A stretch of DNA of 64,000 nucleotides, taken from Haladaptatus litoreus. Its GTDB lineage: Archaea > Halobacteriota > Halobacteria > Halobacteriales > Haladaptataceae. Both the position numbers and the translations under genes were made by a program. Of the stretch, positions 12,927 through 44,388 are shown in pieces (position 1 is the stretch's first letter; every line of letters starts with the position of its first letter). The stretch lies in the NCBI RefSeq assembly GCF_900156425.1, contig NZ_FTNO01000007.1, positions 62,001 to 126,000 of the forward strand, written 5' to 3'. The notes beneath the pieces were generated by a model, which saw nothing but the letters and a program-made list of their open reading frames with translations, had not been told where the DNA came from and searched no databases.

Positions 12927-13331
12927 TTGGGATGGAAAGGTAGCTTCCCACGATTGCAGTGGATCGTATCGACTTTTGCTGCCTCGTCTGCTGATTACGT
13001 TCCGAAAAGACTGGCCGTTTTCTGGGATTTGCCATAGAAAGTCACCAGTGTTCGGATCACCACAGATAGCCACGCCAACAGGAGGCACAGTTGGACGGCG
13101 TCTGTGGCCCCCCGAGCGGCCGGAGACAAAGACCCCCGCAAAGCGAGAAGTACGGCTTCGGTAGAAGAAACGGTTCGTTCTTGTGAATCCGGTGTGTCTA
13201 CCCCGCAGAACCACCCAATTGGGGGGGGTATCTATTGAATCTCGTCTTTTGTGGATGTTTGTCTAAATTTTCCCCGGATTAAAAATGAATACGGAAGTCT
13301 TAACCGTGTGTTGGGCCTCTGTTTAGTTGTA
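12927..13331. other. Intergenic, no gene seen
   Basis: About 400 bases without a supported gene. Holds an uninterrupted G run of eight at about 13213-13220 and AT-richer sequence just before the cold-shock gene, including TTAAAAATGAAT near 13278, a likely promoter region. Confidence 0.4.
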
Positions 13332-13526
13332 ATGGCAAACGGTAAAGTTGATTTCTTCAACAACACTGGCGGCTACGGTTTCATCACGACGGACGACTCT
13401 GACGACGACGTATTCTTCCACATGGAGGACGTTGGCGGCGCTGACCTCGAAGAGGGACAGGAGATTGACTTCGATATCGAACAGGCCCCCAAGGGCCCAC
13501 GCGCGATGAACGTCGTTCGCGCATAA
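13332..13526 (+). CDS. cspA: Cold-shock-domain protein
   Basis: 64 residues. The RNP1 motif KVDFFNNTGGYGFI and RNP2 VFFHMEDV are clear, as are the C-terminal strands (GQEIDFDIEQAPKGPRAMNV). Small OB-fold proteins of this family bind single-stranded RNA/DNA and act as RNA chaperones. Length is normal for haloarchaeal CspA. Monocistronic. Confidence 0.95.
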   Translation: MANGKVDFFNNTGGYGFITTDDSDDDVFFHMEDVGGADLEEGQEIDFDIEQAPKGPRAMNVVRA

Positions 13527-13762
13527 TTCGAGAATCGCATAGTCGCCATTAGGCGACGCTGTGTGACTTTGTTCCATTTTCGGGTGAAAGTACCTCCAGA
13601 GCAGTAGCCTTCGCACTGTCCCAGACAGAGGTCGATTAGGCCAGTCAGAATGTACACCAGGTCGAAGGGACACGGTTCGCGGTGGTATCCACTGACGTTA
13701 CACTCACCGAACCTGAATCAAGATTTCTACAGGGAGATCAAGGCGAGTGCCTCGGGGTCGTT

Positions 13763-13851
13763 CGGAAGATCTTCGAATCGAAGATCTTCCGTGATGACGA
13801 GAGAACTTCTCTCGAACCACTTGACCCTGAGGCGGTTCACTCTCGACCGCC
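13763..13851. repeat. Three consecutive inverted repeats
   Basis: Perfect palindrome of 14-base arms round one base at 13763-13791 (arm CGGAAGATCTTCGA); perfect 8-base arms round one base at 13798-13814 (arm CGAGAGAA); 6-base arms with a nine-base loop at 13831-13851 (GGCGGT/ACCGCC). They lie 3' of the HalOD1 gene at 13975-14250. Could be terminators, protein-binding palindromes or a structured RNA. Confidence 0.7.
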
Positions 13852-13898
13852 ACAGTAGCATCTTCCAGATATGGCAGAGACGTAGGAATCAACTCTGT

Positions 13899-13964
13899 TT
13901 GGAGTGACTTGCCCTCACACCTCTCGTCACACCAACTGATATCCACTTCACAACAGGCGAATAA
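13899..13964 (+). pseudogene. 3' fragment of the 63-residue-protein gene
   Basis: Ends LVTPTDIHFTTGE then TAA, matching RPTEIHFTTDE of the intact gene at 23.7 kb. The frame upstream is broken. As at 23.9 kb, it is convergent with a HalOD1 gene and stops 11 bases from it. Confidence 0.6.
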
Positions 13965-13974
13965 AGCACTTGTT

Positions 13975-14250
13975 CTATTCGTCCTCATGCAGTGAGTGGT
14001 CTGTCTTTGATTCTGATATTGGCTGGTGAAACGTAATCTGCCCACTGCTCTCGACCTTCACATAGTACGAATCGTAATTGAACAAGACTCGTCCATTCGT
14101 ATCACGCGGGACCTCACTCGCTCGTGGGCCGAACAGCGCATCGAGTGCCTCGGGATCAATGAACTCCGAGAGCACTGTTAGTTCAATCGGATCAGCGTCG
14201 TTCAGTGTTGCAACGGCCTTGAGCAACTCTTCACTGACGCTGTCTGTCAT
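13975..14250 (-). CDS. HalOD1-domain protein, N-terminally truncated paralog
   Basis: 91 residues from ATG 14250. HalOD1 region: SVSEELLKAVATLNDADP, SEFIDPEALDALFGP, VLFNYDSYYVKVESSGQITF. The paralog at 43702-44055 is nearly identical but has 26 more N-terminal residues; here the matching sequence ends with YQTEFDP just upstream of the ATG, where an AI-2E transporter fragment begins on the other strand. The domain itself is complete, so the protein may still work, but its native promoter has been lost. Confidence 0.8.
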   Translation of the reverse strand: MTDSVSEELLKAVATLNDADPIELTVLSEFIDPEALDALFGPRASEVPRDTNGRVLFNYDSYYVKVESSGQITFHQPISESKTDHSLHEDE

Positions 14251-43701: not shown

Positions 43702-44055
43702 ATGACCGAATACATTCCTCCATTCGATGACGATAGTAACGATGCAGATGACGCGGTTTATCAAACGGAGTTTGATCCGATAACAGACAGGGTCAGTGAA
43801 GAGCTGCTCAAGGCCGTTGCAACACTGAACGACGCTGATCCGACCGAACTAACAGTGCTCTCGGAGTTCGTTGACCCCGAGGCGCTTGATGCGCTGTTTG
43901 GCCCCCGAGCGAGTAAGGACCCGCGTGATTCGAATGGACATATTTTGTTCAATTACGATTCGTACTACGTGAAGGTTGAGAGCGATGGGCAGATTACGTT
44001 TCACCAACCCATGTCAGAATCAAATACAGATCACGCACTGATTGAGGACGATTAG
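43702..44055 (+). CDS. HalOD1-domain protein (copy of the 23.9-kb module)
   Basis: 117 residues from ATG 43702: acidic leader, TEFDPITDRVSEELLKAVAT, LSEFVDPEALDALFGPRA, LFNYDSYYVKVESDGQITFH. Near-identical to 13975-14250 where they overlap and close to 23926-24282. The upstream 160 bases also match the 24.3-24.48 kb region, so a whole promoter-plus-gene unit was copied. Followed by a convergent fragment of the 63-residue-protein gene. Confidence 0.87.
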   Translation: MTEYIPPFDDDSNDADDAVYQTEFDPITDRVSEELLKAVATLNDADPTELTVLSEFVDPEALDALFGPRASKDPRDSNGHILFNYDSYYVKVESDGQITFHQPMSESNTDHALIEDD

Positions 44056-44068
44056 AACGGGATGTGCA

Positions 44069-44135
44069 TTATTCGTCTGGTGTGAAGTGGATTTCCGTTG
44101 GTGTGACGAGATGTGTGAGATCAAGTCACTCTAAA
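44069..44135 (-). pseudogene. 3' fragment of the 63-residue-protein gene
   Basis: Reverse strand ends LVTPTEIHFTPDE and TAA, matching RPTEIHFTTDE of the intact gene. It lies 14 bases from the HalOD1 stop, the same spacing as at 23.9 kb. Confidence 0.6.
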
Positions 44136-44189
44136 CAGAGTTGATTCATACGTATCTGCTATATCTGGAAGATGCTACTGTGGCGGTCG

Positions 44190-44388
44190 AGAGTGGAAAC
44201 AATACACCGCCACCATCACAGCCCATCGCGGTTGAGAAAAGAGACAGCGGTACAGATGATGGTGAATCGGGAAATGCGGTCACTGTGCAGGCCAATGTCG
44301 AAGTAACGAGAACGTCCAGAACTTCACCGAGCAATTGCAGGACAAAGACGACAACCGTAACGGTGGTGGCCCTGGAAACCCGATCTAA
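44190..44388 (+). pseudogene. Frameshifted Asn/Gly-rich protein fragment
   Basis: SGTDDGESGNAVTVQANVE, then after a one-base slip SNENVQNFTEQLQDKDDNRN, GGGPGNPI and TAA. It is a relative of 30091-30403, broken at about the same place. N-terminus missing. Confidence 0.55.

Follow-up and report, generated by a model that had tools for sequence, protein, structure and literature searches.

The perfect palindromes that lie 3' of a HalOD1 gene in Haladaptatus litoreus very probably belong to a nested mobile element acting as DNA, with a terminal-only palindrome-associated transposable element (PATE) on the outside and, on the inside, a short SMR-A-like mobile repeat, here called M. The element was analyzed within a window of 64,000 nucleotides (the whole stretch of DNA that was studied), and its features are listed in Table 1. 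We observed how it is built, its homologous copies, two kinds of host sequence that also occur free of M, a fixed orientation of M within the outer palindrome, and paired changes in the stems of M.

Table 1. Features of the insertion and its surroundings; coordinates are positions in the window.
Feature	Coordinates	Strand	Evidence or remark
Cold-shock domain gene, other side of the insertion	13323..13526	+	PF00313, E 8e-19
TCTAC, conserved 5 nt flanking the insertion on its left; probable IS605-type target, not part of the element	13726..13730	+	TCTACA in 28/34
Whole 110-bp insertion: probable terminal-only IS605-type element (PATE) containing M	13731..13840	+	homologous copies
Left arm (GCCTCGGGG) of IS605-type near-terminal palindrome	13749..13757	+	same palindrome without M in own tnpB elements L028 and L035
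M, 62-bp inner two-hairpin repeat, TCGTTCG...TGATGA...CGAACCA	13758..13819	+	210 pattern copies; covariance model R1
Hairpin 1 of M (14-base palindrome), 8 nt longer than in similar copy L215	13763..13791	+	repeat search
TGATGA joint between the hairpins of M	13792..13797	+	preceding base varies
Hairpin 2 of M (8-base palindrome)	13798..13814	+	aligned with family
CTTGA, loop of outer palindrome, now 3' of M	13820..13824	+	loop in M-free L028 and L035
Right arm (CCCTGAGGC) of IS605-type palindrome	13825..13833	+	folds with 13749-13757 as DNA and RNA
GGTTCAC, right terminus of IS605-type element	13834..13840	+	homology with unrelated copies ends here
HalOD1 gene, 3' end facing the insertion	13975..14250	-	PF18545, E 7e-20
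Paralogous HalOD1 copy with 3' flank lacking the insertion, junction TTTCCAC/TCTCGACC	43780..44192	-	89% identity over whole 410-nt query

Both perfect palindromes reported in the first-pass annotation are real. Direct reading and a repeat search gave 14-base arms at 13763-13776 and 13778-13791 that are 100% complementary across a 1-nt gap, and direct reading resolved the 8-base palindrome into CGAGAGAA (13798-13805), C and TTCTCTCG (13807-13814). Such palindromes are far above chance level: by an arithmetic estimate under uniform base frequencies, perfect 14-nt arms separated by 1 nt should occur ∼2e-4 times in 64 kb. The 110-nt element folds better than 200 of 200 dinucleotide shuffles, both as DNA (z -5.2) and as RNA (z -4.7). 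In the predicted folds of 13731-13840 both hairpins are surrounded by an outer helix, GCCTCGGGG(TC)/(GA)CCCTGAGGC; the corresponding outer palindrome (GCCTCGGGG at 13749-13757, CCCTGAGGC at 13825-13833) was absent from the original list. The third entry of that list, a 6-base stem formed by GGCGGT (13831-13836) and ACCGCC (13846-13851), is present in the sequence and is no unit, since it straddles the right edge of the element at 13840/13841: GGCGGT is assigned to the transposon end because GGCGGTTCAC is present in many copies, and ACCGCC belongs to the flank. The three palindromes therefore do not form one set, two of them being the hairpins of M and the third spanning the element edge.

The insertion is intergenic and lies 3' of both the HalOD1 and the cold-shock genes; the HalOD1 assignment given at the outset holds, as the neighbor matches PF18545. 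Homology to the flank of the paralogous HalOD1 copy starts at 13838-13841, i.e. at the edge of the element. A clean empty site was not obtained at this paralog (43780-44192), where the right flank matches and the left flank is not homologous, and the stem said to be retained there is not, its GGCGGT being located in the non-homologous left flank. At L306, tested as a composite empty site, homology on the left stops 16 nt short of the junction, with 635 nt of other sequence in between. Upstream of the element, a 30-bp segment (13597-13626) matches C5:288125-288153 of the same genome (L007) at 93% and is possibly another short repeat. Over the cold-shock gene, positions 13230-13566 (L046, 1006-1342) gave a sub-threshold match to the Rfam cspA thermoregulator (27.3 bits, gathering score 78, E 0.002), which probably reflects coding similarity.

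Without the inner insertion the window copy is exactly 48 bp long, too short for transposase coding. Judging from its sequence, this outer layer appears to be a terminal-only IS200/IS605-type (TnpB) element, or PATE, with the left end fused to the right end. It consists of one palindrome, GCCTCGGGG-CTTGA-CCC(T/C)GAGGC, and ends with GGTTCAC. Among the 34 sequences bearing AGTGCCTCGGGG, 28 have TCTACA within the last 32 nt before it, and the bases farther left are unrelated. Aligned solo copies start after TCTAC and most of them terminate with G(G/A)TTCAC, the DNA outside being unrelated. The window copy thus combines the characteristics of a PATE, namely an IS605-type near-terminal palindrome, a constant 5' target oligonucleotide and no target duplication. 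Two further copies of the whole structure are present in the same genome (C9:148697-148804 and C8:15801-15908), together with short partial copies (query 13530-13960). Positions 13725-13840 have matches in 36 of 59 genomes of relatives (E<=0.001) and in 33 plasmid records, 27 of which cover at least 80% of the query; no annotated feature lies beneath 13 of 15 among the plasmid matches listed. Two CRISPR repeat matches (RF01337) were noted at 605-701 of L048, less than 1 kb from a solo copy of the element.

In the genome of H. litoreus, PF07282 (the TnpB zinc-ribbon family) has 30 matches, and there are three Y1 transposase frames, two without and one with internal stops. The three Y1 matches and 23 of the TnpB matches are all on contig C6. 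The 3' flanks of two tnpB genes, L028 and L035, end with GCCTCGGGG-CTTGA-CCCCGAGGC-AGTT(T/C)AC and lack M; the final letters are GTTCAC in L035, as in the window copy, and GTTTAC in L028. The left end of the L035 element, located at L006 (C6:350602-350634), reads TTCTAC-AGAGGGAACAAGGCGAGTGCCTCGGGG-CTTGA-CCCCGAGGGTGAAGCC, and a Y1 transposase frame with an internal TGA lies beside it on the opposite strand. Since the same palindrome is found at both ends of the L035 element, end-to-end recombination would leave TCTAC and about 48 bp. A full-length relative, L142 (genome G036), possesses a left end without M, a tnpB frame of 444 aa and a right end with M, and its TnpB matches that of the M-free L035 element at 90%. 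L142 and L035 are the full-length elements with matching ends; an ortholog of the window locus with a full-length element was not found.

The inner repeat M accounts for 62 extra bases between GGGG and CTTGA and carries both perfect palindromes. It lies at the boundary of the loop in the outer palindrome, flanked by G and C. Its ends, TCGTTCG and CGAACCA, are inverted with respect to each other and unrelated to transposon ITRs, as judged from the TnpB elements examined. The GATGA of the joint was fixed by the search pattern and hence is invariant by construction. The window arms looked so remarkable because hairpin 1 is extended relative to L215, where the corresponding row reads CGGAAGATC-TTC-GATCTTCCG; we infer that a template switch within the hairpin best explains the extra length. 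Four-hairpin forms of 112-121 nt with the same ends as M were found at L098, L105, L169, L171, L206, L261 and L266, and the form at L105 is located in the same IS palindrome as the window M. At L098, L105, L135, L136, L140, L141, L169, L206 and L266, extra hairpins occur at the center of M beside GATGA, as though palindromic units were inserted into one another. We also considered that GUGAUGACG...CGAACCAC might be a kink-turn/L7Ae motif.

A strict pattern, GATGACGAGA-N(3-26)-TCTCGAACCA, matched 33 of the 59 relatives, whereas the reversed pattern used as a control matched 0 of 59; 94 distinct copies were read. The GTDB genome collection contains at least 118 stretches with the M pattern, and among the 80 matches listed all but two titles are haloarchaeal, the two being 'bacterium isolate Bin_57_9' (L231), which lacks hairpin 1 and matches by chance, and 'Euryarchaeota archaeon' (L194). 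Of 148 genomes from the phylum, 27 gave a match to the covariance model of M; 24 of these are the H. litoreus genome itself or members of the same order, and the three matches outside the order are weak (E 5e-5 to 9e-4). In viral_contigs, the M pattern was not found and the exact 29-mer of the 14-base palindrome had 0 matches. The genome-wide palindrome search that had been proposed had a mixed outcome: among own-genome matches there is no second exact 29-mer save its own reverse strand, and the two-hairpin unit is common.

Altogether 210 copies of M were collected, including the chance matches L231 and L252 (no hairpin 1). After leaving out 10 copies without flank, 3 without hairpin 1 by rule and 29 without GTC at the expected place, 168 two-hairpin forms were counted, with lengths of 52-67 nt from GTC. 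Hosts of M include IS605-type ends with or without tnpB and an unrelated ∼200-bp repeat of Halorubrum-type genomes. This repeat (L134, L313-L331) contains AAAGCCCCAG and CTGCCCCTTTGAGTCCC and has up to 253 first-look candidates per genome. Genome G149 carries M variants; those at L294-L300, most with a fully symmetric TGATCA center, are embedded in larger sequences similar on either side; the G+C content of this region is 46-52%.

In the CTCGGGG group (the IS group), C at position -4 and G at -3 to the left of M are each present in 42 of 42 copies, compared with 111 and 114 of the 126 other copies, and AACCA is followed by C in 42/42 and 114/126, respectively; these counts use a rule that demands the G of GTC, and membership of the IS group was itself decided on the flanks. 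Together the flanks give the insertion consensus CGNNG^C. A similar G^C junction occurs in CCTCGGGG, CCACGGGG, CCGCGGGG, other IS605-type palindromes and the Halorubrum-type repeat. When M was removed from L134 and the ends were joined, the resulting sequence matched 52 of 52 genomes of the Halorubrum-type genus and was contiguous across the junction with M-free copies in 20 of 20 alignments (19 loci fetched, L313-L331); 11 of the 20 are gap-free within the 22 columns checked and the other 9 have gaps away from the junction. These contiguous junctions imply that M causes no target duplication. M-free members of the same repeat families were found, and no same-locus strain pair with and without M.

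Of the 210 copies, 55 have this IS605-type palindrome after M, 55 in forward and 0 in reversed orientation; all or most of these in-palindrome copies could descend from few insertions. A TnpB C-terminus lies within 400 nt of 17 of the 210 copies (13 sense, 4 antisense). Long open tnpB frames near M are present at L142 (444 aa), L216 (459 aa), L257 (453 aa) and L131 (423 aa), and other frames are interrupted or cut off. Thus, M near a right end is not linked to a dead tnpB as a rule. Outside the IS605-type group, the flanks did not support a general entry of M into hairpin loops: at an arm score >=6, hairpins are hardly more frequent in its flanks (21 of 113) than in swapped ones (335 of 2237).

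The stems were analyzed in 52 of 153 distinct M sequences, a set of related rows in which the search pattern dictates four of the helix-2 pairs. In the two helices 98.8% of cells are in standard pairs; changes number 149 two-sided and 8 one-sided. Pairing and covariation are far lower in shuffled and slid controls, but 147 of 500 shuffles reach the number of pair types seen in M. A like count for the 5S rRNA of 26 relatives gave 49 two-sided and 11 one-sided changes. One-sided changes thus make up 8 of the 157 changed-but-paired cells in M versus 11 of 60 in 5S rRNA, a soft comparison as the rows are related. The scarcity of G-U intermediates in the stems of M favors a role as DNA, and the perfection of these stems would suit either selection on single-stranded DNA hairpins or template switching.

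Given its two covarying helices, M might instead be a functional RNA domain, either a part of a TnpB omegaRNA or a stand-alone structured RNA, with the paired changes reflecting selection on the RNA fold. The joints GTC, GATGA and AACCA are conserved (in part fixed by the search pattern), and in TnpB elements M occupies the hairpin of the right end, which is where omegaRNAs terminate; a right-end hairpin is a published feature of haloarchaeal omegaRNAs (PMC12558985). We nevertheless regard an RNA domain as unlikely, because the host genome's own tnpB elements L028 and L035 do without M, M also occurs inside an unrelated repeat, and one-sided changes are rarer than in 5S rRNA, related rows keeping this a soft comparison. 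Moreover, in Rfam 15 scans of the window locus and of a set of 12 loci, matches over the element were all below the gathering score. The window copy has no TnpB match nearby and, besides M, just 48 bp of element, so that a tnpB 3' end that could supply an omegaRNA scaffold is missing. A hammerhead ribozyme (GUC, UGAUGA, GAA, three-way junction) was considered and rejected, as the C before UGAUGA is missing and there is no Rfam hammerhead match.

The suggestion that the palindromes are DNA-level sites rather than RNA hairpins stands insofar as they look like mobile or recombination sequence. Its other half, a dimeric-regulator site for the HalOD1 gene, is not supported since the M unit recurs at unrelated loci with unrelated flanks, inside IS605-type ends and inside an unrelated repeat. 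Operators through which a dimeric regulator controls the HalOD1 or the cold-shock gene would agree with the perfect dyad symmetry and with the intergenic location 3' of both genes. Such operators are highly improbable, however: besides the many unrelated loci of the homologues, the symmetric sequence varies widely among copies while the symmetry is kept, which is the opposite of what an operator would do, and the palindromes are absent from the paralogous HalOD1 locus. It is also improbable that M is immobile, an old part of haloarchaeal repeats that was repeatedly lost and whose palindromes are kept perfect by replication template switching. Movement was not directly observed, the uniform orientation of M within the CTCGGGG palindrome (55 versus 0) fits inheritance from few events, and the scarcity of one-sided changes fits template switching. 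On the other hand, a like G^C junction is found in several unrelated hosts, loss would need base precision in every one of them, and SMR-A repeats are described as having strain-specific insertions (PMC3119063).

For the nested mobile element that we favor, the following course can be proposed. An IS200/IS605-type TnpB transposon would insert after TCTAC, and its core would be lost via recombination between identical left-end and right-end palindromes, as we infer for the window copy. M would insert at the G^C step of CGNNG^C, here on the margin of the PATE palindrome's loop, and the target would not be duplicated. The palindromes would fold in single-stranded DNA and be seen as ends by transposition enzymes in trans; Y1 transposases are the most likely enzymes to act in this way on PATE ends, and M too most likely moves as a folded single strand, using an enzyme that comes from elsewhere.

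Both layers resemble elements described in one published paper. In Haloquadratum walsbyi, terminal-only PATEs of 52 bp are described as products of repeat-mediated core deletion (HqIRS46 / ISHwa23; PMC3119063). As characterized there, PATEs share with the outer layer a near-terminal palindrome common with IS605-type elements, the lack of terminal inverted repeats and of target duplication, a short conserved terminal oligonucleotide and a remainder of ∼50 bp; compared by description, the window copy has 48 bp plus TCTAC and contains the inner repeat. The SMR-A repeats (HqIRS42, HqIRS43, HqIRS55) are presented as non-coding, ∼110 bp long, with inverted ends and no target duplication, inserting within the near-terminal palindromes of PATEs and IS605-type transposons, and their mobilization was called 'enigmatic' in 2011 (PMC3119063). 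M is likened to SMR-A by description only: it is non-coding, with inverted ends, no target duplication and PATE/IS605-type palindromes among its targets. Compared with the ∼110 bp given for SMR-A, M is 62 bp in the window, 52-67 nt in two-hairpin forms and 112-121 nt in four-hairpin forms. As to palindrome preference, 55 of 210 copies lie in this IS palindrome and the others in other IS ends or elsewhere; unlike SMR-A as described, M also occurs in a repeat not recognized as IS605-type. The literature search led to this PATE/SMR-A paper and, in the abstracts and passages covered, to no account of M by sequence.

Transposition of IS605 via single strands is treated as established knowledge in the same source (PMC3119063). 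With IS200/IS605 elements carrying an IS1341-type TnpB, the element shares a palindrome near both ends, a fixed 5' target, tnpB upstream of the right end and, in the own-genome full-length element, a divergent tnpA, whereas the window copy has no genes left. Bacterial REP/BIME sequences are short paired palindromes that are present in many copies and probably act as folded single-stranded DNA. M is like them in its paired short palindromes and differs in sequence and target.

The nested pair of PATE and M is widespread in haloarchaea. Tentatively, and with considerable doubt, M might rank among the smallest mobile DNA elements, a double hairpin of 52-67 nt that would move as a folded single strand, insert at CGNNG^C with precise joining and no duplicated target, grow by nesting (two to four hairpins) and be free in sequence as long as its hairpins are perfect. 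TnpB elements can harbor an insertion of ∼60 bp in the right-end hairpin with the tnpB frame open (L142, L216), and these open frames bear on the published idea that such repeats inactivate TnpB elements. Because its ends are defined, its insertion consensus is resolved to the base and M-free versions of its host sequences exist, the M family across Halobacteria offers concrete substrates for a search for the enzyme.
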